Source of the DNA: Bathymodiolus japonicus methanotrophic gill symbiont
GTDB taxonomy: Bacteria > Pseudomonadota > Gammaproteobacteria > Methylococcales > Methylomonadaceae
Reading direction: 5' to 3'
DNA length: 64,000 bases
NCBI RefSeq assembly: GCF_019721995.1
Contig: NZ_BLYC01000004.1
Coordinates: 62,001 to 126,000, forward strand
The notes beneath the pieces were generated by a model. The model saw only the letters and a list, made by a program, of their open reading frames with translations. It was not told where the DNA came from and searched no databases. This document shows positions 1,999 to 63,896 of the stretch, one piece after another; position 1 is the stretch's first letter, and every line of letters starts with the position of its first letter. The position numbers were made by a program, and so were the translations under genes.

Positions 1999-2278
1999 CG
2001 CTGAAAATCATGGAAACGGAGCTTAGCGAAGTGGTGATTTTTAGTCCCTGATAGGCGACAGGGCAATTCGCTGATTCGACGTGTGCTAGCAGCACGCGAG
2101 AGGAGCAAGAATTGCATTCCGAATAGCCGTCCAGCCAGTGAGGTAGTAATGACGAAGCGGCTTTTGTGCGTAGTCGTTGCGGACGCAGGGCGTTCAGGGC
2201 ATCTCCCATCCGCTGCGTAGGTGAACGAATTATGGTGACAGGAGTCCCGGAATTTCGTGAGGTAGCATGGCGCGCCTG
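1999..2278 (-). repeat. Repeat A, full copy (280 bp)
   Basis: Full-length copy reading CGCTGAAAATC to GGCGCGCCTG on the + strand. Flanks CCCT and TAAT show no duplication. The base four positions beyond the 3' end (forward sense AGGG) is G. It ends 23 bp beyond the stop of the lpxA-like gene. Confidence 0.9.
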
Positions 2279-2301
2279 TAATAGTTACTGCTTTTGTGAG
2301 C

Positions 2302-3078
2302 CTACTTCCGCTCCAGTTCCATAAATCCATGCAGGCCTCGCTTGGACTTAACCGCAAGCCATTGTTTAAGGTATTTGATCTCTTCAGTGTCTTCCAGGTG
2401 TTCAATACTTTTGTTTTGCCGAAGTAATCTAAATGCCGTTGAGATAACTTTATAGCGCTCTCCGGTAATGCCAGAACGTTTTATGCCTATGGTGTTCAAA
2501 CGATAGTGCTTTGCCGGATAACCCGCAATCAGGCAGAATGGCAAAACATCTTTATTTAGTCCGGTAGTGCCCTGAACAATGGCATAAGAGCCAATGCGGC
2601 AGAATTGATGCGCTACAACACTGCCGCCCATAAATACACGGTCATCAATTTGCACAAAACCGCCTATCGCAACATTATTGGCAAATATCGTATGGTTGCC
2701 AATCTGGCAGTCATGCGCTACATGGCTTTTATTCATAAAAAAGCAGTGAGAGCCGATGCGGGTGATACTGTTTTCCGTGGCGGCTCGGTGCGCAGTAAAG
2801 CCCTCTCTAAAGGTATTATTGTCGCCAATCTCCAGCCACGAAATTGTTGCTTCTTTAAAGCTGGTATCTTGCGGTAAATCGCCTAAAACAACATGGGCAT
2901 GCACAGTATTGCCCGCACCCATTTTTGTGTAGGGACGGATAACAGCATGAGCCCCAATGCGACAGTTATCGCCTATTTGAGTATGCTCTTCGAGCACCGC
3001 AAATGGGCCAATTGTGACATTTTTGCCTATATTGGCGTGTGCTGAGATATAGGCGCTAGGATGTATGTTTTGTGTCAT
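2302..3078 (-). CDS. lpxA: LpxA-like UDP-N-acetylglucosamine O-acyltransferase
   Basis: 258 residues, close to the usual LpxA length. The N-terminal two-thirds is a hexapeptide-repeat left-handed beta-helix (IGKNVTIGPFAVL, IGDNCRIGAHAVI and more), followed by a helical C-terminal domain. LpxA transfers a hydroxyacyl chain from ACP to UDP-GlcNAc in the first step of lipid A synthesis in the cytoplasm. The HVAHDCQIGNH segment contains the conserved region with the catalytic His (NAHVAHD in canonical LpxA). The C-terminal half is more divergent than in typical LpxA, and the gene is not beside lpxD, fabZ or lpxB. It may therefore be a paralogue acting on a related nucleotide sugar. It is transcribed with xerD 10 bp upstream. 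Confidence 0.75.
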   Translation of the reverse strand: MTQNIHPSAYISAHANIGKNVTIGPFAVLEEHTQIGDNCRIGAHAVIRPYTKMGAGNTVHAHVVLGDLPQDTSFKEATISWLEIGDNNTFREGFTAHRAATENSITRIGSHCFFMNKSHVAHDCQIGNHTIFANNVAIGGFVQIDDRVFMGGSVVAHQFCRIGSYAIVQGTTGLNKDVLPFCLIAGYPAKHYRLNTIGIKRSGITGERYKVISTAFRLLRQNKSIEHLEDTEEIKYLKQWLAVKSKRGLHGFMELERK

Positions 3079-3087
3079 GTGGGGGAT

Positions 3088-3972
3088 TTAGCCTCGTGGA
3101 TGATATTGTGTATGCAGGTCTTTTAAACGCTCGTTGGCGATATGCGTATAAATCTGTGTGGTAGATAGGTCGCTATGACCTAATAGTAATTGCACTACGC
3201 GCAAATCTGCACCGTGATTTAATAAGTGTGTGGCAAATGCATGGCGCAGGGTATGTGGCGATAGTTCTTTACTGATGCCTGCCTTTTTTGCATAGCGCTT
3301 AATAATATGCCAAAAAGCCTGACGTGTCATGCCAGCGCCCCGATTGGTTACAAAAATAGTATTGCAGGGGCGCCCAGATAGTAGCGCTATACGACTGTGC
3401 TGCAGATAAGTTGCCAGGCTATCCATGGCTTGCTCACCCATAGGCGTCAGGCGTTCTTTATTGCCTTTACCGGTGATGCGTAATACCCCCATACGTAGAT
3501 TAACCTGGCTAATAGTTAAAGCGACCAGCTCGGAAACCCGCAGACCTGTCGCATAGAGTATCTCTAGCATAGCTTGATCACGCGCACCTAGCACAGACGA
3601 TGGTTCTGGCGCATTAAGCAATCGCTCAACATCGTATTCTGATAAAGAGCTAGGTAAGGGGCGTCCGATACGCGGGGTATCTATTAAAGCAGTAGGGTCG
3701 CTGTGAATATGATTTTCGCGTAGTAAATAAGTATAGAAGCGCCGTAGGCTGGACAAAATTCTAGCGGAAGAGCGAGAGCTAACGCCTTGTTCATAGCGCT
3801 GGCTCAGAAATAACGCAATATCAGTATTAGTCGCCTGCTGTATAGGTTTTTTTTCCAGGCTTTTGTTGAAAATACGCAAGTCGCTGGCATAGGCGCTGAG
3901 CGTATTTTGGCTGAGGCCATTTTCTACCCATAAAGCATCGATAAAAGTGTCGATTAATTGCTTAGAGCTCAT
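3088..3972 (-). CDS. xerD: Tyrosine recombinase XerD
   Basis: The N-terminal SAM-like core-binding domain (residues ~1-100) is followed by a tyrosine-recombinase catalytic domain. It carries the Arg of ATGLRVSELV, the Lys of GKGNKER, the HTLRHAFATHLLNHGAD box, the GH of LLGHSDLSTT and the nucleophilic Tyr in QIYTHIA. With XerC it resolves chromosome dimers at dif during division. About 295 residues is the normal XerD length. I chose the MSSKQ start; an upstream ATG adds six residues. Either start overlaps the end of ogt, which suggests translational coupling in a pap-ogt-xerD-lpxA operon. Confidence 0.9.
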   Translation of the reverse strand: MSSKQLIDTFIDALWVENGLSQNTLSAYASDLRIFNKSLEKKPIQQATNTDIALFLSQRYEQGVSSRSSARILSSLRRFYTYLLRENHIHSDPTALIDTPRIGRPLPSSLSEYDVERLLNAPEPSSVLGARDQAMLEILYATGLRVSELVALTISQVNLRMGVLRITGKGNKERLTPMGEQAMDSLATYLQHSRIALLSGRPCNTIFVTNRGAGMTRQAFWHIIKRYAKKAGISKELSPHTLRHAFATHLLNHGADLRVVQLLLGHSDLSTTQIYTHIANERLKDLHTQYHPRG

Positions 3973-4693
3973 GAGCCAGCATTTTTTCATGTTGTAATAA
4001 AGCGATTTTTATATCGACCAGTTTTCCAGTTGTTGCGCCTGCATAGCCGCCAAGACCTGTTTTAGAAAGCACTCGATGACAAGGGATTATCAAGGGAAAC
4101 GGGTTTTTACGGCAGGCATTAGCCAGGGCTCTAGAGCCGGTGTTTAATTCTTTGGCTAATTCGCCATAGGTTTTTGTTTGTCCCACTGGTATCTGACAGA
4201 GAGCATGCCAGATTTTTCGCTGAAACTCGGTGCCTTGTTTTAACATGCCTGTGTGCATCGTCATTTTGCCTGTGAGCCAGTACTGGTTAATTTGTTGTTC
4301 CAGGGCAGTGGGTAGCTCAGTATGTTGAGTGTCTATTCCTGGTCTAATGACCCACTGGAGTGTGGATAAAAATTCACCCAGCATTTGTACCTCTAGTGTC
4401 CCAGTAGCTGAAGTTTCCCAATTATTGAGTAGCTGAAATACACAATGCTGGTGTATCGAGGTTTATTTTAGGTGGTTTTGCCATGTTTATAGCAAACCCC
4501 TACTTAATTCCCCTTAGGCAATAGCATTTGAAACGAATGAAAAGACTATTTTTTTCATATAGTTGTAGCATAGTTTCAATTTTACCATAAATAATTATTG
4601 GGAAACTTCAGTCCCAGTAGGTGTCTGGTAATAATAGCATTGTATGGCTTGTGGCTTATCAAGAGTCTGCCAGTTAATTTGAGCCTCTGGCAT
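3962..4693 (-). pseudogene. ogt: Methylated-DNA--protein-cysteine methyltransferase, interrupted by MITE D
   Basis: The C-terminal part (ATG at 4384) has the Ada/Ogt active site PCHRV (acceptor Cys) and the helix-turn-helix segment with 'YGELAKELNTGSRALANACRKN'-like residues. Removing MITE D (4408-4611) and one copy of its 9-bp duplication TCCCAGTAG gives a continuous frame starting at 4693: MPEAQINWQTLDK, continuing through YYQTPTGTLEVQ into MLGEFL. The gene was therefore intact before the insertion. The internal ATG at 4384 could still yield a 140-residue protein with the catalytic domain but without 36 N-terminal residues. The ancestral start lies 3 bp after the pap stop, so the two were probably co-transcribed. 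The enzyme removes O6-alkyl groups from guanine. Confidence 0.85.
4408..4611 (-). repeat. MITE D, full copy in ogt
   Basis: 204 bp with terminal inverted repeats CTGAAGTTTCCCAAT. It is flanked on both sides by TCCCAGTAG, a 9-bp target-site duplication, which defines the boundaries exactly. Confidence 0.95.
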
Positions 4694-9530: not shown

Positions 9531-11124
9531 TCAGTGTTCCCCTATCAATTGAGGCGGTAAAACTAACCTCGCCACAAGAGAGCTCATAAAGCACTGTAAA
9601 GACATTCCTGTTATTATTGCGTTTTGAACTGCTCGAATGGTATACGAGCTGATACGAGATATTCTTGCCTGGAAAAATAATGGATTCACAAAACGATCTC
9701 GTTTTTGGGCCTGTTGCTGCCTAATCTCCAGAGCCTCGCTATATTTTTTATCCGATGGATGAATCAATTCTGGCTGTTGTGTTTTTGAAATCTCTTCAAA
9801 CACGCGCATTAAATTATAGCTCATTGCAGTCAGGCGCATTTGATTTTCAAGTGAGCGGGTATTGGAAGACCAAGCTTTAGTTTCCTTGAAATTACTTTTA
9901 GTGTTATTGAATGTCTTTTCAATCGTCCATCGCTTGAAATACAGCATGGCAATGGTTCCAGGGTTAATAGTCATTGGCAAGGTTGTCACAAACCGGTGAA
10001 GTTTTCCGGTTTCTGGATCACGGTAATCCACCACGTTAAATTTGATGCCCTTGTTTTCGTACACACTGTATGCTTCAACCCCTGTATTGATCTCATGGAG
10101 GGAGTCAAAAGGGATAGACTCAACCAGAGTCGCAATTGAATTTTCTTTTAGCATTGAAATCATGTGATTAGCATGTCGTTTCTGCCGATCCCACCAGACA
10201 AAGCCGGTGACGGCTTTATCGTAGACATAGAGATGTTTCTGAGAGCTGTTATTTCCATTGTTTTGCTTTTCAATATGATCTCGTAACACAGGTATTTCTT
10301 GATGTCTCTGAGTTCCGTTTGTCACCAGACAAAGAAATCTGAGCAACCCACTTCTGAGATTCAACGCGTAAATCCCCCCGGCCGCATAAACTTTCCCCTT
10401 GCTGTTTTTTTCAGTATGGCAGGCATGATCAATAAAATGTCCATCCGCTGCTTCCGCTGAAAATCCTGGAAACGGAGCTTTAGCGAAGTGATGATTTTTA
10501 GTCCGCGATAGCCGTAGGGCCGTTGTTTTGTCGGAGTCTGAGCGTTAGGGAAGGTGGAGACAAAATAAAAGGCCATCCGACACGGCGTCAAGTCATTTGG
10601 AGCCTATGTTCCGACCCCTTGTTGGGTCGGGACGAGGTGACGAGGACGAATCGGGGCCGCCGGAGGCATAAGTGGTCGCGTTAAGTTTTTGCTGCTTGCT
10701 TGGGCTGGGATGCCCAAAACAAGCTTTCGCAAAAATAGCGACTCCCCGACATGGTGTATTCGTCAAGTTCCGGGAATGATTTAAGATAATCAATGCCTTG
10801 CGATAGCAGTGTTTCAGCGTGAAGATGATAGCTCTGCTGTTCAAATGCCTCAAGCATACTTGTTCGTCTATGCGACTTCAGTGATTTAAAATACGTTGAG
10901 TGGGGAAGCAGCTGGCCATAAATCTGTTCATTGGTTTGGAGGAAATGGCGACCACTATCGACTACACTGATACAGCGTAATAACCCAAGGCGAATAAAGT
11001 CGATATCCTTCAACTCTGGGCATGAGCGAGCCCACAAAGGATGACGCTCTGCTAACAGGGCACGTTCCATACTTTCATTGCAGTGTTGGTGAATATGTTC
11101 AGAGAGTGGTAGGTCTTTAAGCAT
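9531..11124 (-). pseudogene. IS F transposase (IS4-like) interrupted by repeat C
   Basis: Two pieces match the 432-residue transposase of 25206-26504: the N-terminal part up to 'ELDEYT', and the part from the 'HFIDHACHTEKN' region to the C-terminus. Repeat C at 10455-10749 separates them and introduces stops. The C-terminal piece keeps the YFKRWTIEKTF block (IS4 Y-R-E-K signature). The two pieces abut exactly when C is removed, apart from one A/G difference. Confidence 0.9.
10455..10749 (-). repeat. Repeat C, copy in IS F1
   Basis: 295 bp from CGCTGAAAATCC to GCGACTCCCCGA on the + strand. Compared with IS F2 it is inserted at GCTGCTTC/TATGG with no duplicated bases. Forward 3' flank GAAG (G at +4). 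Confidence 0.9.
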
Positions 11125-11897
11125 GGGTGATATCCGTTTATGAGGTGATTAAAACGGAAATTTTTAGAAAAATTTTTTCGGCAATTGCAAGCTTTATTTG
11201 AAATTATTTGTTGTTTTTTTACGGTGCCTACAGAGTGTTTATTTGCTGTTATAAGTGATTAAAATCAAAAAGATGGAAATATTCAAGTGGTGCTACCTTC
11301 AGGTAGGTCATAGGCTGCTTTGTTTAGGTACTTCTTCTTTCAATGGGAACACTGATGCAATCAATACAAATACAGTTAGATGCCCCACTTTCTATCGAGC
11401 GTTGTCCAGATTGTTTTGGTATGTTTTTTGACAAGGGAGAACTAGAGGTCTTGTTAAATCATGCTGTGCAACATGTAGCATTTATAAATCTGGCGCATCT
11501 GAATAATATAAATGCGGATCGATTTCGTGTCGAACAGCGGGTTAAATATATTAAGTGCCCGGTTTGTTTAAAGTTTATGCACCGCAGCAATTTTGCGCTA
11601 AAAAGTGGTGTTATTGTGGGCATTTGCCGCGTTCATGGTCTGTGGTTAGATAATGGTGAAGTAACTCATCTGATGGAATGGAAAAAGGCGGGTGGGCAGT
11701 TGTTGTATCGGCAGGAACAACAGAAAAAACAGCCTAAACTGAGAAAAACGCAAGCGGGTCGTTCTGATAGGCTGTGGGGCGATGCACTACAAAAAGATAC
11801 ACTTAGCCTGGAAACAGATTTACTTGAGCTGTTAGCATCTGTCGTGGGAAAAATATTTTTGTGAAGGGCTAGCTAGTGCAGCACTAGGCGCTTTATG

Positions 11898-13249
11898 TTA
11901 TTGCATAACTTTGGAATTAAACAGTTCAATATGCGTCGCGGCTGAACTTAGATGTAACAACTTGTTTAAACGGCAGGCAACAGGCTCGATATTAGCACGG
12001 TGCAGGTTAACAAATTCACTCGGCTGAAACTTACTATCATTAAAAAGTAGACTGTCTGCGGAATCCAGCGCTTTTATACCCGGCAGGAAAATTGCCCATG
12101 CATAAATGGAGTCATGATTAGGGAGAGAGATATAGGATAGTTCAGACTCCAGTGCTAACAGCTTGATGCCCAATTCCAGCTTATGCCCGGTCAACTGCGA
12201 TATTCTGCAAATAATACCGATTTCCTGGGTATTGTTATTAGCGATCGCAATAATATCGCCAATCTGTACGGTAGATTGATTGACCTTGGTATCAGAAATA
12301 ATTTTGTAGCCTTTGATACTGCTGTCGATGATATTAAATTTATCCGGATTATCAGGTCGGTCTTGCAATAACTTGTTCTCAGGATTTGCCCAGATATTTT
12401 TACTCTGTGAGTTTTTCAGCGCCTGATCAATTCTGCTCTGTTCTTCTCTTAACTGAAGTTTCCCAATTATTGAGTAGCTGAAATACACAATGCTGGTGTA
12501 TCGAGGTTTATTTTAGGTGGTTTTGCCATGTTTATAGCAAGCCCCTACTTAATTCCCCTTAGGCAATAGCATTTGAAACGAATGAAAAGACTATTTTTTT
12601 CATATAGTTGTAGCATAGTTTCAATTTTACCATAAATAATTATTGGGAAACTTCAGTTCTCTTAATAGTCCCATATGCTGGCGACTTTTATTCATGGCAT
12701 CTAGTGACTCATAACCCTCTGTGACTAATTCGATGTTGGGTACTATCCTCCCACCAGCAACCCTAGGGTCTATTGGGTCTATGCCTTGCTTGCCTAGTGC
12801 TTCAGTATTTAAAGGGCTGCTGTTATGTAGTTGTTGAATGATAGCACAAAAGCCGATTAAGCCATGGTGTTGGTTTTTCTCGTTAAAGCGGGTGAATTTA
12901 CGTTTTTGCGATAAGCTTAGCGTTTTTGCTGCCAACAATATATTTTCGCGATTTATTGATTTGATAATCCCGGTTCCAGGTGCATCGTGAGCGGCATTTT
13001 TATTGATTTATAATGCAGATGAATAAGCAGAAAAAAACCGTATGGCACTTTTTTCGGATTGTTTCAGGCGGTTTAAATTACTAGGTGGCTTATCCACGGT
13101 TAAGTCAAAGCCAGAGTAGCGGGCAGTTTTTGCAACAAGAAATTTTTTGCCCAGTAGCATGGTTGAAGTGTATTTTTCTACACAGTCAGAAACAGTCAGC
13201 ATATCGCGTGGGCGAAATTGTTCCAGGTTACAGTGGAAGAGTGCTAACA
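11898..13249 (-). pseudogene. PilZ-like protein gene, 3' half (rearranged)
   Basis: Reading downstream from 13249 (TAACA duplication of IS E): LLALFHCNLEQFR, KTARYSGFDLTV, FRVEQ-like basic stretches, an in-frame TAA at 13008-13010, then NAAHDAPGTGIIKS and KRKFTRFNEKNQ. After MITE D (12453-12656; duplication TTCTCTTAA) follows LREEQSRIDQA, then GDIIAIANNNTQEIGIICRI, a segment resembling the GxI/V...G pattern of PilZ-type barrels, up to 11898. The 5' half is at 18956-19900 on the other strand. I infer a PilZ/c-di-GMP-related protein of ~550 residues from general layout only; the family assignment is weak. The gene has lost function through D, IS E, A', B and an inversion. Confidence 0.65.
12453..12656 (-). 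repeat. MITE D, full copy in the PilZ-like gene
   Basis: 204 bp between CTGAAGTTTCCC and GGGAAACTTCAG, with 9-bp duplication TTCTCTTAA on both sides. Confidence 0.95.
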
Positions 13250-14362
13250 CTCGATGTTCAAGTTTTTGATATTGAGAAGGTAAAATCAGGTATTCTGAGG
13301 TTGTTGTAATTTTATCGGTGTAATCCCATGTTAATGAATGCCCCAGCCACCTTTATCCAAAGCTATATTGACGATTTAAATGATGCGCTCAATCAGCTAA
13401 AACCCGGAGCGGCTTTGACACGTATTCAAGCCGCTTGGTTGGGCGCTTGTTTAACGTGCATACTGCTAATGAACTCTGTTTGCTGGGCTAAGTTTGAGCG
13501 AGCAAGCCTTGGAGATTGCAAAGTAGCCGCATTATCCTGGGTGTTTCGTAAAGCAAGTATACCCTGGGACTGGTTGCTACGGGTGAGTGTGGTCTTAATT
13601 TTAAAACGTTATGGCATTACTGAAGGTGTGTTGGCCTTTGATGAATCAGACCGAGCACGATCTAAGTCTACAAAACGTATTTATAAGGTTTACAAGCAGA
13701 AACACAAAGGCTCCGGCGGGTATGTTAATGGACAAACGATAGTATTATTGCTGCTAGTTACCTCATCCATTACAGTGCCTGTCGGTTTTTTCTTTTATAT
13801 GCCGGATCCAGCCTTAAAGCAGTGGGATAAAGAAGATAAACGGTTGAAAAAGAGCGGTATAGCAAAAAAAGATCGGCCTATTAAGCCTGAACGTGACAGT
13901 GCCTACCCGACCAAAACAGAGATTGCATTAGGCTTATTAAAAGAGTTTAAAGTTGCGCATAGCCTGATTAAAATTAAAGGCGTACTGGCTGATGCGCTGT
14001 ATGGTGAAAAAGCCTTTATGGACGAAGCCGCTAAAGAATCTGGAGGCTCGCAGGTGATTAGCCAATTACGTAAAAACCAAAATATTGAATATAGAGGTAG
14101 AATAAGGTCAGTCGAGAGCTACTTTAATTCGATTAACAAAGGCATTGATCAGATAATACGTGTACGTGGCGGCAAAGAGATTAAAGTGACTGTCAGCAGT
14201 GCACGATTAAAGGTGAGTTCACACAGTAAAAAACGCTTTGTCATTGCCTTAAAATATGACGGTGAAAACGACTATCGCTATTTAGTGGCGACAGACCTGA
14301 CTTGGCGCACACAAGATATTATTCAAGCCTATACGTTGAGATGGCTGATTGAGGTTTTCTTT

Positions 14363-14462
14363 CAGGCGCGCCATGCTACCTCACGAAATTCCGGGACTCC
14401 TGTCGCCTATCGGGGACTAAAAATCACCACTTCGCTAAGCTCCGTTTCCATGATTTTCAGCG
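14363..14462 (+). repeat. Repeat A, internally deleted 100-bp form
   Basis: Both ends of A are kept (CAGGCGCGCC and TTTTCAGCG). The 180 bp between the two internal copies of CCTGTCGCC are missing, leaving one copy: a clean direct-repeat deletion. Inserted between CTTT and GAGG of the IS E transposase without duplication. Confidence 0.9.
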
Positions 14463-14516
14463 GAGGACTGGAAGCTTTATGAAGGATGGGGGCGTGAGGC
14501 CAAACAATTAGATGAA

Positions 14517-14811
14517 TTGGGGAGTCGCTATTTTTGCGAAAGCTTGTTTTGGGCATCCCAGCCCAAGCAAGCAGCAAAAACTTAACGCGACCACTTATGC
14601 CTCCGGCGGCCCCGATTCGTCCTCGTCACCTCGTCCCGACCCAACAAGGGGTCGGAACATAGGCTCCAAATGACTTGACGCCGTGTCGGATGGCCTTTTA
14701 TTTTGTCTCCACCTTCGCTAACGCTCAGACTCCGACAAAACAACGGCCCTACGGCTATCGCGGACTAAAAATCTTCACTTCGCTAAAGCTCCGTTTCCAG
14801 GATTTTCAGCG
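14517..14811 (+). repeat. Repeat C, copy in IS E1
   Basis: 295 bp from TTGGGGAGTCGC to TTTTCAGCG. The intact IS E sequence GATGAA/GAGGGATC is split with nothing lost or duplicated. 3' flank GAGG. Confidence 0.92.
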
Positions 14812-15210
14812 GAGGGATCAAGCCGTGGCCTGATTCTGAGTCTTTTGTTTGACCATTGCCTTCTCCTTCACCCAGAGCAAATAGCCCGCATTGAAAGCAA
14901 ACTACCTGCGTATACCGTAGGAAGCTTACAGCGCAAGTCTCAAATGGATGTACTGCTTGAGTTCATCACGTCATTGCTAGAGTTTCCAGATCCTGGTGAT
15001 AAGCTGAAAGAGTTAGGTGAATTAATAAAGGATGTGTTTCAACTGATGCCATCAGGAAAACATATGATTGGCAGAGATTTAGGGCGCTTAGGGCCAACAG
15101 CATCATTAAAGTATTGTTCTGCTGGGTGAAGGTAAGAGTTTGATGGCAATGGGATGGAAAAACTTGAACATCGAGTAATAGAGCTTCGTGCAAGCTAAGA
15201 CCTACTCCCC

Positions 15211-18985: not shown

Positions 18986-19269
18986 CAGGCGCGCCATGCT
19001 ACCTCACAACATTCTGGGACTCCTGTCACCAACATTCATTCGCCTACGCAGCGAATGGGAGATGCCCTGGTCGCCCTGCGTCCGTCTCAACTACGCACAA
19101 AACCCTGCTCCGTTAAAGACTACCTCAAATGGCTGGAAGGCTATTCGGAATGCAATTCTTGCCTCCCTCGCGCGCTACTAGCGCACTTCGGATCAGCGAA
19201 TTGCACTGTCGCCTACCAGGGACTAAAAATCATCACTCCGCTTAGGCTCCGTTTCCCTGATTTTAAGCG
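18986..19269 (+). repeat. Repeat A' (diverged A, 284 bp)
   Basis: Starts CAGGCGCGCC and ends GATTTTAAGCG. Sequence is ~80 % like A, with GCGCT-ACT-AGCGC where A has GTGCT-GCT-AGCAC. Flanks ATCT and ACGG; no duplication, and the host frame is preserved. Confidence 0.85.
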
Positions 19270-19488: not shown

Positions 19489-19748
19489 CGCTGTCAGCCC
19501 CGGACGGGCTGATAGTCTCCAGAAGGCGCAGGGAAATTTGCCAATCCGAAGTGCGCGATAGCGCGCGAGGTAGGCTGAAATTTTATCCCGAATAGCCGTA
19601 GAGCCATTTGTGGTAGCCATGACTGAGCTGCTTTGTGCTCAGTCTGTGGCGGACGCAGGGCGGCTGGAGCATCTCCTATTCGCTGCGTAGGTGAACGAAT
19701 TACGGCGACAGGAGTCCCGGAATTTCGTGAGGTAGCATGGCGCGCCTG
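19489..19748 (-). repeat. Repeat B, copy in the PilZ-like gene
   Basis: 260 bp. The forward 5' end is that of A (CAGGCGCGCCATGC), and the 3' end is a different hairpin (TCAGCCC-GTCC-GGGGCTGA) followed by CAGCG. Forward 3' flank GTTG. Confidence 0.85.
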
Positions 19749-20048: not shown

Positions 20049-20328
20049 CGCTGAAAATCATGGAAACGGAGCTTAGCGAAGTGGTGATTTTTAGTCCCTG
20101 ATAGGCGACAGGGCAATTCGCTGATTCGACGTGTGCTAGCAGCACGCGAGAGGAGCAAGAATTGCATTCCGAATAGCCGTCCAGCCAGTGAGGTAGTAAT
20201 GACGAAGCGGCTTTTGTGCGTAGTCGTTGCGGACGCAGGGCGTTCAGGGCATCTCCCATCCGCTGCGTAGGTGAACGAATTATGGCGACAGGAGTCCCGG
20301 AATTTCGTGAGGTAGCATGGCGCGCCTG
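20049..20328 (-). repeat. Repeat A, copy in IS E2
   Basis: Full 280 bp. Inserted between ATTAATA and AAGGATG of the transposase (forward sense), with one flanking substitution. Forward 3' flank in this copy AAAG. Confidence 0.92.
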
Positions 20329-20531: not shown

Positions 20532-20826
20532 CGCTGAAAATCAGGGAAACGGAGCCTAAGCGAAGTGATGATTTTTAGTCCGCGATAGCCGTAGGGCCGT
20601 TGTTTTTTCGGAGTCTGAGCGTTAGCGAAGGTGGAGACAAAATAAAAGGCCATCCGACACGGCGTCAAGTCATTTGGAGCCTATGTTCCGACCCCTTGTT
20701 GGGTCGGGACGAGGTGACGAGGACGAATCGGGGCCGCCGGAGGCATAAGTGGTCGCGTTAAGTTTTTGCTGCTTGCTTGGGCTGGGATGCCCAAAACAAG
20801 CTTTCGCAAAAATAGCGACTCCCCGA
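20532..20826 (-). repeat. Repeat C, copy in IS E2 at a deletion junction
   Basis: 295 bp. The two flanks come from positions ~0.7 kb apart in intact IS E. Forward 3' flank GTGG. Confidence 0.9.
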
Positions 20827-28651: not shown

Positions 28652-30073
28652 ATGTTAATGAATGCCTCGGCCACCTTTATCCAAAGCTATATTGACGATT
28701 TAAATGATGCGCTCAATCAGCTAAAACCCGGAGCCGCTTTGACACGGATTCAAGCCGCTTGGTTGGGCACTTGTTTAACGTGCATACTGCTAATGAACTC
28801 TGTTTGCTGGGCTAAGTTTGAGCGAGCAAGCCTTGGAGATTGCAAAGTAGCCGCATTATCCTGGGTGTTTCGTAAAGCAAGTATACCCTGGGACTGGTTG
28901 CTACGGGTGAGTGTGGTCTTAATTCTAAAACGTTATGGCATTACTGAAGGTGTGTTGGCCTTTGATGAATCAGACCGAGCACGATCTAAGTCTACAAAAC
29001 GTATTTATAAGGTTTACAAGCAGAAACACAAAGGCTCCGGCGGGTATGTTAATGGACAAACGATAGTATTATTGCTGCTAGTTACCTCATCCATTACAGT
29101 GCCTGTCGGTTTTTTCTTTTATATGCCGGATCCAGCCTTAAAGCAGTGGGATAAAGAAGATAAACGGTTGAAAAAGAGCGGTATAGCAAAAAAAGATCGG
29201 CCTATTAAGCCTGAACGTGACAGTGCCTACCCGACCAAAACAGAGATTGCATTAGGCTTATTAAAAGAGTTTAAAGTTGCGCATAGCCTGATTAAAATTA
29301 AAGGCGTACTGGCTGATGCGCTGTATGGTGAAAAAGCCTTTATGGACGAAGCCGCTAAAGAATCTGGAGGCTCGCAGGTGATTAGCCAATTACGTAAAAA
29401 CCAAAAAATTGAATATAGAGGTAGAATAAGGTCAGTCGAGAGCTACTTTAATTCGATTAACAAAGGCATTGATCAGATAATACGTGTACGTGGCGGAAAA
29501 GAGATTAAAGTGACTGTCAGCAGTGCACGATTAAAGGTGAGTTCTCACAGTAAAAAGCGCTTTGTCATTGCCTTAAAATATGACGGTGAAAACGACTATC
29601 GCTATTTAGTGGCGACAGACCTGACTTGGCGCACACAAGATATTATTCAAGCCTATACGTTGAGATGGCTGATTGAGGTTTTCTTTGAGGACTGGAAGAT
29701 TTATGAAGGATGGGGGCGTGAGGCCAAACAATTAGATGAAGAGGGATCAAGCCGTGGCCTGATTCTGAGTCTTTTGTTTGACCATTGCCTTCTCCTTCAC
29801 CCAGAGCAAATAGCCCGCATTGAAAGCAAACTACCTGCGTATACCGTAGGAAGCTTACAGCGCAAGTCTCAAATGGATGTACTGCTTGAGTTCATCACGT
29901 CATTGCTAGAGTTTCCAGATCCTGGTGATAAGCTGAAAGAGTTAGGTGAATTAATAAAGGATGTGTTTCAACTGATGCCATCAGGAAAACATATGATTGG
30001 CAGAGATTTAGGGCGCTTAGGGCCAACAGCATCATTCGCTGAAAATCCTGGAAACGGAGCTTTAGCGAAGTGA
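28652..30073 (+). CDS. IS E transposase (IS4/IS701-type), nearly full length
   Basis: 473 residues. Motifs: FDESDRARSKS, LADALYGEKAF, and YTLRWLIEVFFEDWK with Y-(2)-R-(3)-E-(6)-K spacing. Repeat C enters only at the extreme C-terminus (GPTAS). It replaces the normal last residues LKYCSAG with a short tail ending NGALAK, so the enzyme may still work. It is the best-preserved E copy in the window and would also be the likely source of transposase for the 152-bp MITE E'. Confidence 0.85.
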   Translation: MLMNASATFIQSYIDDLNDALNQLKPGAALTRIQAAWLGTCLTCILLMNSVCWAKFERASLGDCKVAALSWVFRKASIPWDWLLRVSVVLILKRYGITEGVLAFDESDRARSKSTKRIYKVYKQKHKGSGGYVNGQTIVLLLLVTSSITVPVGFFFYMPDPALKQWDKEDKRLKKSGIAKKDRPIKPERDSAYPTKTEIALGLLKEFKVAHSLIKIKGVLADALYGEKAFMDEAAKESGGSQVISQLRKNQKIEYRGRIRSVESYFNSINKGIDQIIRVRGGKEIKVTVSSARLKVSSHSKKRFVIALKYDGENDYRYLVATDLTWRTQDIIQAYTLRWLIEVFFEDWKIYEGWGREAKQLDEEGSSRGLILSLLFDHCLLLHPEQIARIESKLPAYTVGSLQRKSQMDVLLEFITSLLEFPDPGDKLKELGELIKDVFQLMPSGKHMIGRDLGRLGPTASFAENPGNGALAK

Positions 30074-30331
30074 AGATTTTTAGTCCGCGATAGCCGTAGG
30101 GCCGTTGTTTTGTCGGAGTCTGAGCGTTAGCGAAGGTGGAGACAAAATAAAAGGCCATCCGACACGGCGTCAAGTCATTTGGAGCCTATGTTCCGACCCC
30201 TTGTTGGGTCGGGGCGAGGTGACGAGGACGAATCGGGGCCGCCGGAGGCATAAGTGGTCGCGTTAAGTTTTTGCTGCTTGCTTGGGCTGGGATGCCCAAA
30301 ACAAGCTTTCGCAAAAATAGCGACTCCCCGA
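30037..30331 (-). repeat. Repeat C, copy in IS E4
   Basis: 295 bp. It splits GCATCATT/AAAGTATTG of intact IS E without duplication. Forward 3' flank AATG. Confidence 0.92.
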
Positions 30332-39869: not shown

Positions 39870-40477
39870 TTAACCCATCTTCGTCACTTTTATCTTTCTA
39901 AGCTATTGATTCATCGGTTTAAGCGATTTTTTGTCGAAAAATTCTCTTTAAAATCAATGGTGTTTTTTTGAAAGTTTTATAGTGCCAGTTATATTATTTT
40001 TGTCGATAAATTCATTGACTTTTGTCAAAAAAATCATCATTATTTGAGTGTAATTTACATTTCGACAAAAATACTCTAAAAAATTCAACGTTTTATACAA
40101 AAAACACAAAATCTGTAGTGCCAACTGGCTTACGCTGAAAATCATGGAAACGTAGCTTAGCGAAGTGGTGATTTTTAGTCCCTGATAGGCGACAGGGCAA
40201 TTTGCTGATTCGACGTGTGCTAGCAGCACGCGAGAGGAGCAAGAATTGCATTCCGAATAGCCGTCCAGCCAGTGAGGTAGTAATGACGAAGCGGCTTTTG
40301 TGCGTAGTCGTTGCGGACGCAGGGCGTTCAGGGCATCTCCCATCCGCTGCGTAGGTGAACGAATTATGGCGACAGGAGTCACGGCATTTCGTGAGGTAGC
40401 ATGGCGCGCCTGTTTTTAAAATTTCAACCAATTGATTTATAACAACTACATCATCAATAGTGACGAAGATGGGTTAA
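39870..40477. repeat. MITE J with 19-bp terminal inverted repeats, containing repeat A
   Basis: TTAACCCATCTTCGTCACT at 39870-39888 is repeated exactly in inverse at 40459-40477. Without the A insertion (40133-40412) the unit is 328 bp, AT-rich, without coding capacity. Only one copy is in the window, so its boundaries are provisional. Confidence 0.6.
40133..40412 (-). repeat. Repeat A, copy in MITE J
   Basis: 280 bp with a few substitutions (AACGTAGC, GTCACGGCATT). Forward 3' flank TAAG; no duplication. Confidence 0.9.
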
Positions 40478-41089: not shown

Positions 41090-41369
41090 CGCTGAAAATC
41101 ATGGAAACGGAGCTTAGCGAAGTGGTGATTTTTAGTCCCTGATAGGCGACAGGGCAATTCGCTGATTCGACGTGTGCTAGCAGCACGCGAGAGGAGCAAG
41201 AATTGCATTCCGAATAGCCGTCCAGCCAGTGAGGTAGTAATGACGAAGCGGCTTTTGTGCGTAGTCGTTGCGGACGCAGGGCGTTCAGGGCATCTCCCAT
41301 CCGCTGCGTAGGTGAACGAGTTATGGCGACAGGAGTCCCGGAATTTCGTGAGGTAGCATGGCGCGCCTG
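41090..41369 (-). repeat. Repeat A in IS6 (first site)
   Basis: 280 bp. Forward flanks GGAGA and GTGGAAA rejoin to the codons of VKGEWKYFYR with no gain or loss. Confidence 0.95.
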
Positions 41370-41518: not shown

Positions 41519-41798
41519 CGCTGAAAATCATGGAAACGGAGCTTAGCGAAGTGGTGATTTTTAGTCCCTGATAGGCGACAGGGCAATTCGCTGATTCGAC
41601 GTGTGCTAGCAGCACGCGAGAGGAGCAAGAATTGCATTCCGAATAGCCGTCCAGCCAGTGAGGTAGTAATGACGAAGCGGCTTTTGTGCGTAGTCGTTGC
41701 GGACGCAGGGCGTTCAGGGCATCTCCCATCCGCTGCGTAGGTGAACGAATTATGGCGACAGGAGTCCCGGAATTTCGTGAGGTAGCATGGCGCGCCTG
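41519..41798 (-). repeat. Repeat A in IS6 (second site)
   Basis: 280 bp. Forward flanks ATAGCT and AAAGAAC rejoin to EEIAKERGY exactly. Confidence 0.95.
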
Positions 41799-42335: not shown

Positions 42336-44021
42336 ATGTTAATGAATGCCCAGCCACCTTTATCCAAAGCTATATTGACGATTTAAATGATGCGCTCAAT
42401 CAGCTAAAACCCGGAGCCGCTTTGACACGGATTCAAGCCGTTTGGTTGGGCACTTGTTTAACGGGCATACTGCTAATGAACTCTGTTTGCTGGGCTAAGT
42501 TTGAGCGAGCAAGCCTTGGAGATTGCAAAGTAGCCGCATTATCCTGGGTGTTTCGTAAAGCAAGTATACCCTGGGACTGGTTGCTACGGGTGAGTGTGGT
42601 CTTAATTTTAAAACGTTATGGCATTACTGAAGGTGTGTTGGCCTTTGATGAATCAGACCGAGCACGATCTAAGTCTACAAAACGTATTTATAAGGTTTAC
42701 AAGCAGAAACACAAAGGCTCCGGCGGGTATGTTAATGGACAAACGATAGTATTATTGCTGCTAGTTACCTCATCCATTACAGTGCCTGTCGGTTTTTTCT
42801 TTTATATGCCGGATCCAGCCTTAAAGCAGTGGGATAAAGAAGATAAACGGTTGAAAAAGAGCGGTATAGCAAAAAAAGATCGGCCTATTAAGCCTGAACG
42901 TGACAGTGCCTACCCGACCAAAACAGAGATTGCATTAGGCTTATTAAAAGAGTTTAAAGTTGCGCATAGCCTGATTAAAATTAAAGGCGTACTGGCTGAT
43001 GCGCTGTATGGTGAAAAAGCCTTTATGGACGAAGCCGCTAAAGAATCTGGAGGCTCGCAGGTGATTAGCCAATTACGTAAAAACCAAAATATTGAATATA
43101 GAGGTAGAATAAGGTCAGTCGAGAGCTACTTTAATTCGATTAACAAAGGCATTGATCAGATAATACGTGTACGTGGCGGCAAAGAGATTAAAGTGACTGT
43201 CAGCAGTGCACGATTAAAGGTGAGTTCTCACAGTAAAAAACGCTCGCTGAAAATCATGGAAACGGAGCTTAGCGAAGTGGTGATTTTTAGTCCCTGATAG
43301 GCGACAGGGCAATTCGCTGATTCGACGTGTGCTAGCAGCACGCGAGAGGAGCAAGAATTGCATTCCGAATAGCCGTCCAGCCAGTGAGGTAGTAATGACG
43401 AAGCGGCTTTTGTGCGTAGTCGTTGCGGACGCAGGGCGTTCAGGGCATCTCCCATCCGCTGCGTAGGTGAACGAATTATGGCGACAGGAGTCCCGGAATT
43501 TCGTGAGGTAGCATGGCGCGCCTGTTGTCATTGCCTTAAAATATGACGGTGAAAACGACTATCGCTATTTAGTGGCGACAGACCTGACTTGGCGCACACA
43601 AGATATTATTCAAGCCTATACGTTGAGATGGCTGATTGAGGTTTTCTTTGAGGACTGGAAGCTTTATGAAGGATGGGGGCGTGAGGCCAAACAATTAGAT
43701 GAAGAGGGATCAAGCCGTGGCCTGATTCTGAGTCTTTTGTTTGACCATTGCCTTCTCCTTCACCCAGAGCAAATAGCCCGCATTGAAAGCAAACTACCTG
43801 CGTATACCGTAGGAAGCTTACAGCGCAAGTCTCAAATAGATGTACTGCTTGAGTTCATCACGTCATTGCTAGAGTTTCCAGATCCTGGTGATAAGCTGAA
43901 AGAGTTAGGTGAATTAATAAAGGATGTGTTTCAACTGATGCCATCAGGAAAAAATATGATTGGCAGAGATTTAGGGCGCTTAGGGCCAACAGCATCATTA
44001 AAGTATTGTTCTACTGGGTGA
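42336..44021 (+). pseudogene. IS E transposase, frameshifted and interrupted
   Basis: A 1-bp deletion in the fourth to fifth codon (ATGCCCAGCC instead of ATGCCCCAGCC) breaks the start, and repeat A splits the frame after SSHSKKR. Otherwise the protein matches the copy at 28652, including LADALYGEKAF and YTLRWLIEVFFEDWK. Confidence 0.9.
43245..43524 (-). repeat. Repeat A in IS E5
   Basis: 280 bp. Intact IS E reads AACGCT/TTGTCATT at this point; nothing is duplicated. Forward 3' flank AGCG. Confidence 0.95.
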
Positions 44022-44426: not shown

Positions 44427-45109
44427 GATACAGCGTAATAACCCAAGGCGAATAAAGTCGATATCCTTCAACTCTGGGCATGAACGAGCCCACAAAGGAT
44501 GACGCTCTGCTAACAGGGCACGTTCCATACTTTCATTGCAGTGTTGGTGAATATGTTCAGAGATCGGGGAGTCGCTATTTTTGCGAAAGCTTGTTTTGGG
44601 CATCCCAGCCCAAGCAAGCAGCAAAAACTTAACGCGACCACTTATGCCTCCGGCGGCCCCGATTCGTCCTCGTCACCTCGTCCCGACCCAACAAGGGGTC
44701 GGAACATAGGCTCCAAATGACTTGACGCCGTGTCGGATGGCCTTTTATTTTGTCTCCACCTTCGCTAACGCTCAGACTCCGACAAAACAACGGCCCTACG
44801 GCTATCGCGGACTAAAAATCTTCACTTCGCTAAAGCTCCGTTTCCAGGATTTCCAGCGGTGGTAGGTCTTTAAGCATGGGTGATATCCGTTTATGAGGTG
44901 ATTAAAACGGAAATTTTTAGAAGAATTTTTTCGGCAATTGCAAGCTTTATTTGAAATTATTTGTTGTTTTTTACGGTGCCTACAGAGTGTCTATTTGCTG
45001 TTATAAGTGATTAAAATCAAAAAGATGGAAATATTCGAGTGGTGCTACCTTCAGGTAGGTTATAGGCTGCTTTGTTTAGGTACTTCTTCTTTCAATGGGA
45101 ACACTGATG
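44427..45109 (-). mobile_element. IS F copy 3, 5'-end fragment with repeat C
   Basis: Right terminus GGGAACACTGATG at 45109; the rest of the element is lost at the IS66 junction. It carries the start of the transposase (to about residue 50, ending near LGLLRCI), interrupted by C at 44564-44858. It truncates a lipoprotein gene on its right. Confidence 0.9.
44564..44858 (+). repeat. Repeat C in IS F3
   Basis: 295 bp from TCGGGGAGTCGC to TTTCCAGCG. Splits CAGAGA/GTGGTAGG of IS F without duplication. Confidence 0.92.
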
Positions 45110-59259: not shown

Positions 59260-59539
59260 CGCTGAAAATCATGGAAACGTAGCTTAGCGAAGTGGTGATT
59301 TTTAGTCCCTGATAGGCGACAGGGCAATTCGCTGATTCGACGTGTACTAGCCGCACGCGAGAGGAGCAAGAATTGCATTCCGAATAGCCGTCCAGCCAGT
59401 GAGGTAGTAATGACGAAGCGGCTTTTGTGCGTAGTCGTTGCGGACGCAGGGCGTTCAGGGCATCTCCCATCCGCTGCGTAGGTGAACGAATTATGGCGAC
59501 AGGAGTCCCGGAATTTCGTGAGGTAGCATGGCGCGCCTG
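59260..59539 (-). repeat. Repeat A at the IS F4 break
   Basis: 280 bp. Forward 3' flank TCGG. The two flanks derive from unrelated sequences, unlike the seamless insertions. The gap 59540-59668 holds no gene. Confidence 0.9.
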
Positions 59540-61208: not shown

Positions 61209-61253
61209 GTTTAAGCTCTCCAAATTTGGAAATTATTTATCTGAGAAACTATA

Positions 61254-61406
61254 CATGAAAAAAAATAGTCTTTTCATTCGTTTCAAATGCTATTGCCTAA
61301 GGGGAATTAAGTAGGGGTTTGCTATAAACATGGCAAAACCACCTAAAATAAACCTCGATACACCAGCATTGTGTATTTCAGCTACTCAATAATTGGGAAA
61401 CTTCAG
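61254..61406 (-). repeat. MITE D, part (reversed)
   Basis: First ~150 bp of D in reverse orientation, ending CTTCAG at 61406 and cut on the left by IS630. It ends 4 bp before the start of a lipoprotein-like frame. Confidence 0.88.
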
Positions 61407-61410
61407 TTAT

Positions 61411-62082
61411 ATGAAACAACTAAACTTATTTCCCTTATTGTTGGTGTTGTTTGTTACTGCCTGCGCTAATACTGGCTTTAGTTAATACAACTGCTGTTGA
61501 AAATCAATCTGTTAGCTATACCGGAACGGGCACATTAAATATTGCCCCGGTTATTTTTGCCAAGGATTTGCAAGTAAGAGAGGCGGTACGTAAGGAATGT
61601 CAGCTATTAACTAAATTACCTGGTTTTGTGCAAAGCTATGCGCAAGATCAATACGCGAGTATAAATTTAGATGCAAAGAGATCAACAAACGCTGAAAATC
61701 ATGGAAACGTAGCTTAGCGAAGTGGTGATTTTTAGTCCCTGATAGGCGACAGGGCAATTTGCTGATTCGACGTGTGCTAGCAGCACGCGAGAGGAGCAAG
61801 AATTGCATTCCGAATAGCCGTCCAGCCAGTGAGGTAGTAATGACGAAGCGTCTTTTGTGCGTAGTCGTTGCGGACGCAGGGCGTTCAGGGCAGTGGGTAA
61901 CAATCAAAGGTTCCTTGCTCAGAAAAGGAAAAAAGACACGTACATTTACTGCCAATCGAGGCTTTATGGGAGCCTATAAAGGCACTTGCGCATTATTAGG
62001 GCGTTGCACTAAGGCATTAGGCAAAGATATTGCTGAATGGCTTAATAATCCAGTCGGTGGAGCTTCTTTAGGCGATATGTGA
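61411..62082 (+). pseudogene. Secreted protein, frameshifted and cut by a truncated repeat A
   Basis: MKQLNLFPLLLVLFVTAC is a lipoprotein-type signal, but a stop follows after NTGFS. The neighbouring frame gives LILALVNTTAVENQSVSY, then IAPVIFAKDLQVREAVRKEC and ends at repeat A (61690-61891). After it the frame is WVTIKGSLLRKGKKTRTFTA, GAYKGTCALLGRCTKALGKD and GGASLGDM to 62082. The last block resembles DUF4410-like lipoproteins, a weak assignment. It lies just upstream of the second flavoprotein gene and was probably co-transcribed with it. Confidence 0.65.
61690..61891 (-). repeat. Repeat A, truncated at its 5' end
   Basis: The forward 3' end (CGCTGAAAATC on the + strand) is intact with flank TTTG. 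The other end stops in CGTTCAGGGCA, losing ~80 bp. Confidence 0.88.
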
Positions 62083-62104
62083 TGATCGAGAGATAAATAT
62101 AATA

Positions 62105-63427
62105 ATGGCAGATTTACTACCTGAAAAATGTACCGTACTAGTTATCGGCGGTGGCCCTGCCGGAAGTAGTGCTGCAACACAGTTGGCAAAAAGAGGTATT
62201 GATGTCGTGTTGCTGGAGCGCGCAAAATTCCCACGTAACCAGGTCGGTGAAAGCCTGATTCCGCATTTCTGGAAATTCACCGATCAACTGGGTGTTACTG
62301 AAAAAATTCAGCAACAAGGGTTTCTTAGTAAAGCAGGTGGTATTACCGTCTGGAATAATAAAATTCATCAGATTCTGTTTTCAGATTATGGCTATACCCG
62401 GCCAGGTTTGCATATCGAGCGGGATGTTTTTGACCAGCTCTTGCTTGAGCATTCTGAGCAGCAAGGTGCGCAGGTTTTTAACCAGGTGGTGGTTAAAAAA
62501 GTTGATCTATCCCAATCTCAACCTATTGTTGCCTATACCGATACCCGTGGCACTTCAAATCAACAAGGCACGATACAATGTCAATATCTAATTGATGCTA
62601 GTGGACATAGTTCTTTATTAGCACATCAGTTAGAAACTCGGCAAACCATTAGTTCGGAAATGAACTTCTTGTCTCTTTGGGGCTATTTCAAAAGTTCGCG
62701 CTTTGTCGGTGTCGATCGTCAAAGTCACTCTCATGCAGAATTAAAGACGATGGCTCCCGTGACTTTTGTGATGACACATGATGATGGCTGGTTATGGCAT
62801 ATTATTTTGCGTGAGAAAACCAGCGTTGGTCTGATCGTACATACCGATAAATTAACCGGTATGAATAAGATCCAGCGTGAAGCATATTTTATACACAGTT
62901 GCGCGCGGATACCTTACTTAAAGGATTTATTAAGAGATGCCGAGTTTATTGCGGGTTCTTTGCAGTATCGTCCTGATTATTCCTATTATGCCAGCCAGGC
63001 CTGTAGGGAAAATTATTATTGCATCGGTGATGCGGCGGGCTTTGTAGATCCTATATTTTCGCACGGGGTACAGAATGCTTTTTATAATGCGGCAGTGGCT
63101 TCTCTGGCTATTAGCGAATCGTTAAAAAATACGAAAAAAGCGGCGCGTTTTGCAGCTTTATGTGAAAACCGTATGCAGCAGTTTTATAGCTTTTCCAGGG
63201 CGCTTTCTCTGGGAGATTTTGGTTGTAATGGAGTGCATAGGGATCTGGTTAAATCATTGATGAAATCAATGCCACCGCTGGAATTAGAGTTGATGCTGGT
63301 GGCTTCTGAAATGACCAATCGTTCGGAAAATTTCAAGCAGCTTGCTCGTGAAGCAGGTGTCTGGGAGCAATTTTCAGAACAGTTTGAACAGCAAAAAAAG
63401 GGCGTGATAGCAGAGCTTAATTTTTAA
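62105..63427 (+). CDS. FAD-dependent oxidoreductase, halogenase-like (second copy)
   Basis: 440 residues. FAD motif VLVIGGGPAGSSAATQLAK, then FPRNQVGESLIPHFW, DGWLWHIILREKTSVGLIV in the place of the WxWxIP motif (the Pro is replaced by Ile-Leu), and CIGDAAGFVDPIFSHGVQ. It is about 25-30 % like the flavoprotein at 45259 by eye and belongs to the same superfamily as tryptophan-type halogenases and geranylgeranyl reductases. The altered motif argues against halogenation. Starts 22 bp after the lipoprotein pseudogene; MITE D follows 3 bp after the stop. Confidence 0.8.
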   Translation: MADLLPEKCTVLVIGGGPAGSSAATQLAKRGIDVVLLERAKFPRNQVGESLIPHFWKFTDQLGVTEKIQQQGFLSKAGGITVWNNKIHQILFSDYGYTRPGLHIERDVFDQLLLEHSEQQGAQVFNQVVVKKVDLSQSQPIVAYTDTRGTSNQQGTIQCQYLIDASGHSSLLAHQLETRQTISSEMNFLSLWGYFKSSRFVGVDRQSHSHAELKTMAPVTFVMTHDDGWLWHIILREKTSVGLIVHTDKLTGMNKIQREAYFIHSCARIPYLKDLLRDAEFIAGSLQYRPDYSYYASQACRENYYCIGDAAGFVDPIFSHGVQNAFYNAAVASLAISESLKNTKKAARFAALCENRMQQFYSFSRALSLGDFGCNGVHRDLVKSLMKSMPPLELELMLVASEMTNRSENFKQLAREAGVWEQFSEQFEQQKKGVIAELNF

Positions 63428-63430
63428 TTA

Positions 63431-63635
63431 CTGAAGTTTCCCAATTATTGAGTAGCTGAAATACACAATGCTGGTGTATCGAGGTTTATTTTAGGTGGTT
63501 TTGCCATGTTTATAGCAAACCCCTACTTAATTCCCCTTAGGCAATAGCATTTGAAACGAATGAAAAGACTATTTTTTTTCATATAGTTGTAGCATAGTTT
63601 CAATTTTACCATAAATAATTATTGGGAAACTTCAG
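63431..63635 (+). repeat. MITE D, full copy (205 bp)
   Basis: Complete unit from CTGAAGTTTCCC to GGGAAACTTCAG. The right flank is occupied by repeat B, one base away, so its duplication is unclear. Confidence 0.93.
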
Positions 63636-63636
63636 T

Positions 63637-63896
63637 CGCTGTCAGCCCCGGACGGGCTGATAGTCTCCAGAAGGCGCAGGGAAATTTGCCAATCCGAAGT
63701 GCGCGATAGCGCGCGAGGGAGGCTAAAATTTTATCCCGAATAGCCGTAGAGCCATTTGTGGTAGCCATGACTGAGCTGCTTTGTGCTCAGTCTGTGGCGG
63801 ACGCAGGGCGGCTGGAGCATCTCCTATTCGCTGCGTAGGTGAACGAATTACGGCGACAGGAGTCCCGGAATTTCGTGAGGTAGCATGGCGCGCCTG
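63637..63896 (-). repeat. Repeat B, second copy (260 bp)
   Basis: Almost identical to 19489-19748. Forward 3' flank ACTG, formed by the end of MITE D. The last ~100 bp of the window (63897-64000) hold nothing I recognise. Confidence 0.92.

Follow-up and report, generated by a model that had tools for sequence, protein, structure and literature searches.

How does a repeat that carries no gene enter new sites in a genome without duplicating or losing a base there? The question is raised by a 64,000-nucleotide stretch of DNA, here called the window (positions 62,001 to 126,000 of contig NZ_BLYC01000004.1, assembly GCF_019721995.1), from the methanotrophic gill symbiont of Bathymodiolus japonicus, a member of the Methylococcales. 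Its repeats belong to three related families of one gene-less mobile element, A (280 bp), B (295 bp) and C (260 bp). These near-identical, foldable pieces insert exactly beside a G at the fourth base after their 3' end (+4), and apparently mostly in one orientation relative to replication. In our view the case is real and unusually clean: a structured element without genes inserts exactly and with an apparent link to replication. The source assembly (G000) has 4.97 Mb in 109 contigs and is 98.86% complete. Counts given for 1.21 Mb refer to a first genome sample of 1,212,206 bases, made up of the window and further stretches, and the second, additional sample comprises 782,500 bases (0.78 Mb).

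Family A starts with CAGGCGCGCC and ends with CATGATTTTCAGCG. Family B starts with TCGGGG and ends with GATTTTCAGCG, and its final ~60 bp are common to A. The two bases that precede GGGG are mostly TC and sometimes GC or TT in the B copies inspected. Family C starts with CAGGCGCGCC like A, is ~80% like A over the first 237 bp and has its own end, TCAGCCCGTCCGGGGCTGACAGCG. Judged from these sequences the families look modular, with a tail common to A and B and a body common to A and C.

The sequence-only reading of the window had described the insertions as exact, and the larger sample bears this out. In the 1.21 Mb, 325 copies are full length and have flanks that can be used (A 102, B 117, C 106), and a copy was testable where the sample also contains an uninterrupted match to its site. 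With the element-specific first two bases removed, 138 of 144 testable copies align ungapped across the join, 119 of them perfectly over 30 nt. Removal of one or two more bases as a control leaves only 14 and 3 of 145 ungapped. In a frame test, an open reading frame (ORF) of at least 150 amino acids (aa) crosses the exact join in 130 of 323 copies, compared to 80 and 82 after removal of one or two bases and 62 with the element present. One of the six gapped alignments was inspected, that of a family C copy on contig C8 near 86110, where a direct duplication of ~21 bp is seen.

The key feature of the target is a single base on one side. All 17 readable 3' ends in the window, 15 of A/B and 2 of C, have G at +4 with the flanks as first read. 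In the 1.21-Mb sample, G is found at +4 of 255 of 260 A/B ends (T 4, C 1; 2.05 bits) and of all 105 C ends, the latter searched with one exact 14-mer. The second sample gives 132 of 138 A/B and 44 of 45 C ends, and other genomes 95 of 95 distinct ends. Pooled over the own and other genomes, +4 G follows 390 of 395 A/B-type CAGCG ends, 10 of 10 AAGCG ends and 112 of 113 C-type ends, while rarer altered ends are mixed. The joined-site profile of the 325 full-length copies has its strongest position at +4 with 2.05 bits, and no other position exceeds 0.34 bit; two weak ones are +1, which is seldom C (3%), and +5, which is seldom G (4%). Left-flank positions reach at most 0.10 bit, the value of -1, and thus only one flank is specific. 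The A or T that had been placed before the 5' end is present at 11 of 11 A and C starts in the window, but genome-wide in only 70% of the 325 copies, where the A+T content of the window is already 57%; it is a weak tendency and not a component of the site. The site first given as W^NNNG is better given as ^NNNGH on the top strand, or DCNNN^ on the bottom strand.

Orientation follows base composition. Where the plus strand is G-rich, the elements lie mostly on the minus strand, and agreement with GC skew is found for 196 of 242 copies unmasked and for 185 of 233 with the elements masked (p 4e-20), 92 of the 325 copies being left out for weak skew. In the second sample 103 of 127 copies agree and 56 are left out. 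The bias holds inside ORFs for either reading direction (41/54 and 34/41), and element and ORF direction are unlinked, with 54 sense and 41 antisense copies. Replication, rather than transcription, seems to set the orientation, with GC skew standing in for replication direction. Single-strand integration, one of the routes proposed from the sequence, gains support from this orientation by skew (185/233) regardless of gene direction. If GC skew marks replication direction, the orientation bias makes the bottom strand the lagging-strand template.

The bottom strand is probably also the strand that folds. At the CAGCG end it forms a hairpin whose CTG...TAG base contains a G-T pair, where the top strand has an A-C mismatch, and over 13 sequences the wobble sits on the bottom strand (33 A-C vs 1 G-T cells read on top). 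The foot is CG-CTG...TAG in all of A, B and C. The A/B and C 3' hairpins are unrelated, yet both run straight into CAGCG and both follow the +4 G rule. The whole B bottom strand has a consensus fold of 71 pairs, 27 of them changed on both sides, among 11 B relatives from several genomes. In this fold 92.8% of cells are paired; none of 500 shuffles is as high on any measure, and slid versions reach 38-46%, a comparison that favours the fold in that it was derived from the alignment used to score it. Hairpins lie near both ends of B, with helices at columns 2-50 and 251-322 of the alignment (A1), of which 1/13 and 8/25 pairs are compensated. Direct support exists for exact insertion, the one-sided C/G rule, the hairpin end, the GC-skew orientation and the conserved fold.

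We consider it fairly probable that A, B and C are non-autonomous single-strand transposons of an HUH/Y1-like kind, which move at replication forks by means of an enzyme acting in trans. The parts of this reading that we infer are the role of replication in causing the bias, the single-strand intermediate, the enzyme class and the action in trans. The active strand would be the bottom strand, 5'-[D C N N N]^CG-CTG(hairpin)TAG...-3'. At the fork the lagging-strand template is expected to be single-stranded, so that the element could fold into its hairpins. A trans-acting enzyme, most likely an HUH/tyrosine nuclease of IS200/IS605-RAYT type, would act on the folded strand and join the 5' hairpin end of the element to the 3' end of the target three nt after the C. 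The 3' end of the element would then be joined to the rest of the strand, and replication would make the insert double-stranded. Since replication would convert a single-strand insert in this way, no bases would be duplicated or lost. Movement in trans by an HUH/Y1 enzyme would account for joins that are exact, a site rule on one side only, the hairpin, the strand bias and the lack of a gene in the element. Single-strand, lagging-strand action with hairpin recognition is described for IS608, ISDra2 and TnpA-REP in the accessible parts of two reports (PMC6006769, PMC8266576).

A candidate for this enzyme was sought in the window and in the genome. That the window encodes no evident one stands: 46 ORFs of at least 150 aa were scanned (5 NCBIfam, 41 Pfam) without a match to an HUH, IS110 or reverse transcriptase (RT) family, the IS110 result covering window ORFs only. 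These ORFs encode DDE transposases, a XerD-type tyrosine recombinase (3088-3990) and metabolic genes, and several have no match. The genome gives 22 matches to the Y1 transposase model (PF01797), mostly partial or degenerate. L181 is one full-length RAYT-like protein with 65 bits against an NCBIfam cut-off of 80, flanked by a different repeat that is present only twice in 1.21 Mb. L174 is an IS200-type frame of 113 aa, and the insertion sequence (IS) to which it belongs has ends unlike A/B/C. Whole or partial elements are present in 13 of 20 Y1 loci and 3 of 5 RT loci, taken as ~3-kb stretches of which several overlap, and ~12 of 20 are expected from the extrapolated element density. In ten relatives, 30 Y1 loci were taken from more than 100 matches. 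Four of them hold element pieces, and end-type hairpins occur at three places in two loci (L246, L264), at least two of these places within element copies. None of the 20 own-genome and 30 relatives' Y1 loci showed a Y1 transposase that belongs to an element ending like A/B/C. A RAYT profile from five proteins found L181 and a weak L175 in ~1.5 Mb with overlaps, and nothing in the additional 0.78 Mb. MGRS-type RAYT, present in G014 and G110, has no match in the source genome in a search without positive control. This RAYT-like family, which starts MGRSRY, was seen at L212:143-673 and 1730-2260 and at L207:2359-2889, and PF01797 misses the L207 copy (G110).

Reverse transcriptases are represented by five genome matches. 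L171:1075-2253 and L173:235-2166 (contig C102) form an antiviral Drt3a/Drt3b pair in which each RT scores above its NCBIfam cut-off, and L172 is retron-like and below cut-off. L169 has a group II RT model as its best NCBIfam match (132 bits vs a cut-off of 300), and L170:1474-1833 (contig C43) is a group II-type RT fragment in a locus where one A and one C element lie close by. The group II RT that the sequence-only reading had named as a candidate has these two possible counterparts, although an RT source is unproven. The enzyme gene may be missing from the assembly, given its completeness and its 109 pieces, or be of another kind than searched.

A longer element sharing both termini, which had been proposed as a check, was not recognised among 374 5' ends in the 1.21 Mb, where the intervening DNA was not examined. 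A 3' end follows within 1.5 kb for 350 of these; 16 of the 350 two-ended copies exceed 320 bp and 5 are below 240 bp. The forms above 320 bp, at least the commonest ones, fit nested copies in our reading. At the remaining 24 5' ends, A/B similarity stops after 36-289 nt, and 12 of the 24 have a same-strand 3' end 1.8-4.8 kb further on, which is about chance at this element density. A long autonomous copy is possible between such unpaired ends or in the unsampled 60% of the genome. Opposite-facing pairs (L211, L220) were considered as autonomous elements and rejected, as the ORF listings show ordinary-looking genes between them.

Several points weigh against a Y1-type enzyme acting in trans. 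The cognate enzyme was not found, the Y1 genome search having given only L181, L174 and partial matches. IS200/IS605 elements have a conserved target of 4-5 nt at the left end, whereas A/B/C fix only the C at -4 of the bottom strand. The conserved interior fold exceeds what end hairpins require, and some internal helices have more wobble on the top strand (e.g. 14 vs 1 and 3 vs 0 cells). GC skew is a proxy for replication direction without a mapped origin, and ~1/5 of copies oppose the bias. The HUH/Y1 model alone explains neither the conserved interior fold nor the one-base target, and the L170 fragment and the XerD gene slightly lower our confidence in it, to the benefit of the retro-insertion and recombinase routes considered next. 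The fold in particular invites an RNA-based route, in which a structured RNA of bottom-strand sense reverse-splices, or is reverse transcribed, into the single-stranded lagging template like endonuclease-less group II introns. Such retro-insertion would suit the conserved, compensated fold of the whole element and the exact joins, and the bottom strand occupies the lagging template as an intron sense strand would; RmInt1-type introns have their sense strand in the lagging template. L169 and the L170 fragment show that group II-like RT sequence exists in the genome. Against this, the elements carry no group II signature of Rfam, though the same library detected a real group II intron in L207. 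Rfam gave no match at gathering in the window, no group II match in 10300-14900 at E up to 10, and over element copies only chance-level matches with E of at least 0.5 (WT1-AS_5, eiav_FSE). The copies are also mostly full length, and ORFs in the bottom-strand direction are not in excess (41 vs 54), and we hold retro-insertion to be unlikely. Target-primed reverse transcription with 5' truncation was rejected as main model on the majority of full-length copies. Truncated pieces occur at either end.

Rolling-circle transposition of IS91/Helitron type would begin at the hairpin end and treat the other end as a terminator. It would match a hairpin end with a fixed flank rule beside a free opposite flank, the lack of duplication and the TC with which B mostly starts. 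No match to the Y2 transposase model (PF04986, Y2_Tnp) was found in the genome, a search in which the control genomes were silent as well and which hence does not show absence, and the scarcity of two-ended copies beyond 320 bp, with nesting as the fit for at least the commonest, speaks against it; we rate its chance as low. A DDE transposase or a serine/tyrosine recombinase that exchanges strands bluntly or one strand only, such as a Xer-type enzyme working on the hairpin in the manner of an integron integrase, would leave exact blunt joins that look identical to those observed. The window encodes the XerD-type recombinase and several DDE transposases, and some integrases are able to use folded single strands. 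The ends, judged by eye, have neither inverted repeats nor common core bases, a DDE enzyme leaves the strand bias unexplained, and XerD is an ordinary host gene, which makes this route quite doubtful in our view. The fixed G could further be read as part of a protospacer-adjacent motif (PAM), with insertion into breaks made by an IscB/Cas9-like, RNA-guided nuclease three bases away. The join does lie exactly 3 bp from the G, Cas9-like enzymes cut 3 bp from their PAM, and HEARO/IscB RNAs are mobile structured RNAs. The RNA-guided integration of the sequence-only reading nevertheless found no support, as one element sequence enters many different and unrelated sites. HEARO is absent from the Rfam matches to the elements, TnpB (PF07282) has no match in the genome with a positive control, and IscB/RRXRR (PF14239) has none with a control that was silent too; the orientation bias also stays unexplained, and we consider this route very improbable. 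There is finally a slim chance that A/B/C represent a new, protein-free class of mobile nucleic acid in Methylococcales: a structured strand of 260-295 nt, possibly RNA with ribozyme-like ends, that inserts itself exactly into the single-stranded lagging template at 3 nt past nearly any C, either with an enzyme of a type so far without a link to transposition or with no enzyme at all.

Short solo hairpins (CGCTGAAAATC...GATTTTCAGCG) with CAGCG at both ends occur in 7 of 237 genomes and obey the rule on both sides, with C on the left at 15 of 15 and G on the right at 14 of 15 listed loci (L282 and L285 being identical sites). For L279 (G000:C1:303494-303541), uninterrupted copies of the IS concerned contain both flanks at 26 places, with a spacing of 578-580 bp. 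Exact joining of the flanks does not favour frames, with 0 of 15 giving an ORF of 150 aa. We read the solo hairpins as what is left after a deletion between two opposite insertions, with each end still beside its own flank, a reading based on one of seven own-genome sites; for the other six, no copies hold both flanks. The flank spacing at L279 and the absent frame gain led us to drop solo hairpins as counter-evidence to the one-sided rule. The L279 hairpin stands in place of ~579 bp of the IS, which suggests that opposite copies delete the intervening DNA and leave one palindrome.

The A/B tail, searched with at most 2 mismatches, occurs 992 times in the whole genome (478 and 514 by strand) and 0 times in a reversed control. 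Since the ratio of C ends to A/B tails is ~0.4 in the sampled 1.99 Mb, we extrapolate to ~1,400 elements, or ~0.39 Mb and ~8% of the genome. To our knowledge, such a load is unusual for gene-less bacterial elements. Copies with both ends are uniform in length, with the commonest length reached exactly by 113 of 120 B, 106 of 112 C and 84 of 112 A copies. A specific tail search is positive in 72 of 237 genomes and 16 of 29 genera, and 165 genomes lack the tail. A first pattern, GATTTTCAGCGNNNG, had given all 29 genera; its L220 match was a chance one inside a gene, and the pattern was replaced by the more specific tail. Among the matches listed, named tail carriers include Methylococcales such as Bathymodiolus methanotrophic symbionts, Methylomonas, Methylotuvimicrobium and Crenothrix, and A copies in a Bathymodiolus platifrons symbiont are closely similar (L077, L080, L081), which points to a methanotroph, probably of Methyloprofundus, as the source of the window. 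The tail was also seen in a thiotrophic symbiont record and a Rhodospirillales metagenome-assembled genome (L099, L102), for which contamination with methanotroph DNA is our guess. Four plasmid records match, every one from methanotroph genera. Family B has no match in the phage collection, and a few stretches of viral contigs hold ordinary element copies. At a B copy in viral contig IMGVR_UViG_2781126804_000001 (L240:1880-2480), the left flank is repeated downstream, so that a local duplication adjoins the insert. Searches of open-licence literature, as judged on titles and the starts of abstracts, listed no paper that describes the repeats in methanotrophs. A massive IS load with mostly disrupted transposases is reported for Methyloprofundus symbiont genomes, and the portion of that report available to us does not describe these repeats (PMC8788690).

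In the window, full-length A copies lie on the minus strand at 1999-2278 (3' flank AGGG), 20049-20328 (AAAG), 40133-40412 (TAAG) and 59260-59539 (TCGG). On the same strand, the A copy at 41090-41369 (GTGG) interrupts an IS6-family transposase, and the one at 41519-41798 (AAAG) apparently interrupts the first part of that IS6 gene as well. The minus-strand A copy at 43245-43524 (AGCG) lies within an IS4/IS701-like transposase that scores below the NCBIfam cut-off, and the A copy at 61690-61892 (minus strand, TTTG) is without its 5' part. On the plus strand, an A copy with an internal deletion and both ends intact lies at 14363-14462 (GAGG) within an IS4/IS701-like transposase, again below cut-off, and an A variant with 85% identity and the end AAGCG at 18986-19269 (ACGG). 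B copies are found on the minus strand at 10455-10749 (GAAG), 20532-20826 (GTGG) and 30037-30331 (AATG), and on the plus strand at 14517-14811 (GAGG, 5' end TTGGGG) and 44564-44858 (GTGG). The B copy at 14517 probably sits downstream in the same interrupted IS as the A copy at 14363, and its flanks occur joined in a copy on contig C8. The two C copies, at 19489-19748 (GTTG) and 63637-63896 (ACTG), are on the minus strand.

With well over 100 exact before/after sites, the record of single-strand insertion that A/B/C offer is unusually clean, and its target rule comes down to essentially one base. Should there be an enzyme that demands so little of its target, it would offer a new model of how HUH enzymes choose their sites and might serve as a scarless tool for near-random insertion. 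The spread of enzyme-less palindromic repeats, such as small mobile repeats (SMRs) and CGTC REPs, becomes directly testable with these elements.

Among known systems, DDE insertion sequences and miniature inverted-repeat transposable elements differ from A/B/C, whose ends are unrelated by eye, without terminal inverted repeats, and which cause no duplication in 138 of 144 cases. ORF-less group II introns are likewise structured and insert exactly, and their orientation is that of the lagging template. A/B/C differ from them in having no Rfam group II match, no fixed exon-binding target and an unproven RT source. REP/BIME/REPIN sequences with their RAYT (TnpA-REP) are high-copy hairpins for which movement by Y1 enzymes, acting in trans on a single strand, is assumed. 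In contrast to REPs, the foot of A/B/C is CGCTG and not GTAG or CGTC, and the units have 260-295 bp and often lie inside ORFs. No RAYT gene flanked by A/B/C was found, L181 having another repeat beside it. CGTC-type REPs are likewise without an enzyme, as far as the text available to us states (PMC3733652).

The SMRs of Haloquadratum share the lack of duplication and of a known enzyme, but have terminal inverted repeats, which A/B/C lack. Palindrome-associated transposable elements (PATEs) of the same genus are also gene-less, with palindromes near the ends, no terminal inverted repeats and no target duplication, and they number 177 and 194 copies in two strains. PATEs share their ends with IS605-type transposons, whereas no parent element was found for A/B/C; these details on SMRs and PATEs are taken from one partly accessible source (PMC3119063). 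A/B/C differ further in their 992 A/B ends in one genome and in an interior fold that is conserved across genera. Together with IS200/IS605, TnpA-REP and the enzyme-less CGTC REPs, PATEs and SMRs are the nearest published descriptions found. In its way of working the element resembles IS200/IS605 (IS608, ISDra2). Exact duplication-free insertion, hairpin ends (at both ends in B), a lagging-strand preference (by GC skew) and one specific flank on the 5' side of the active strand are common to both. The end hairpin of A/B/C begins 2 nt from the end, a transposase gene is absent and the fold is conserved throughout. The target sets the element apart from membership in IS200/IS605, but by analogy it appears to work like a derivative of this family.

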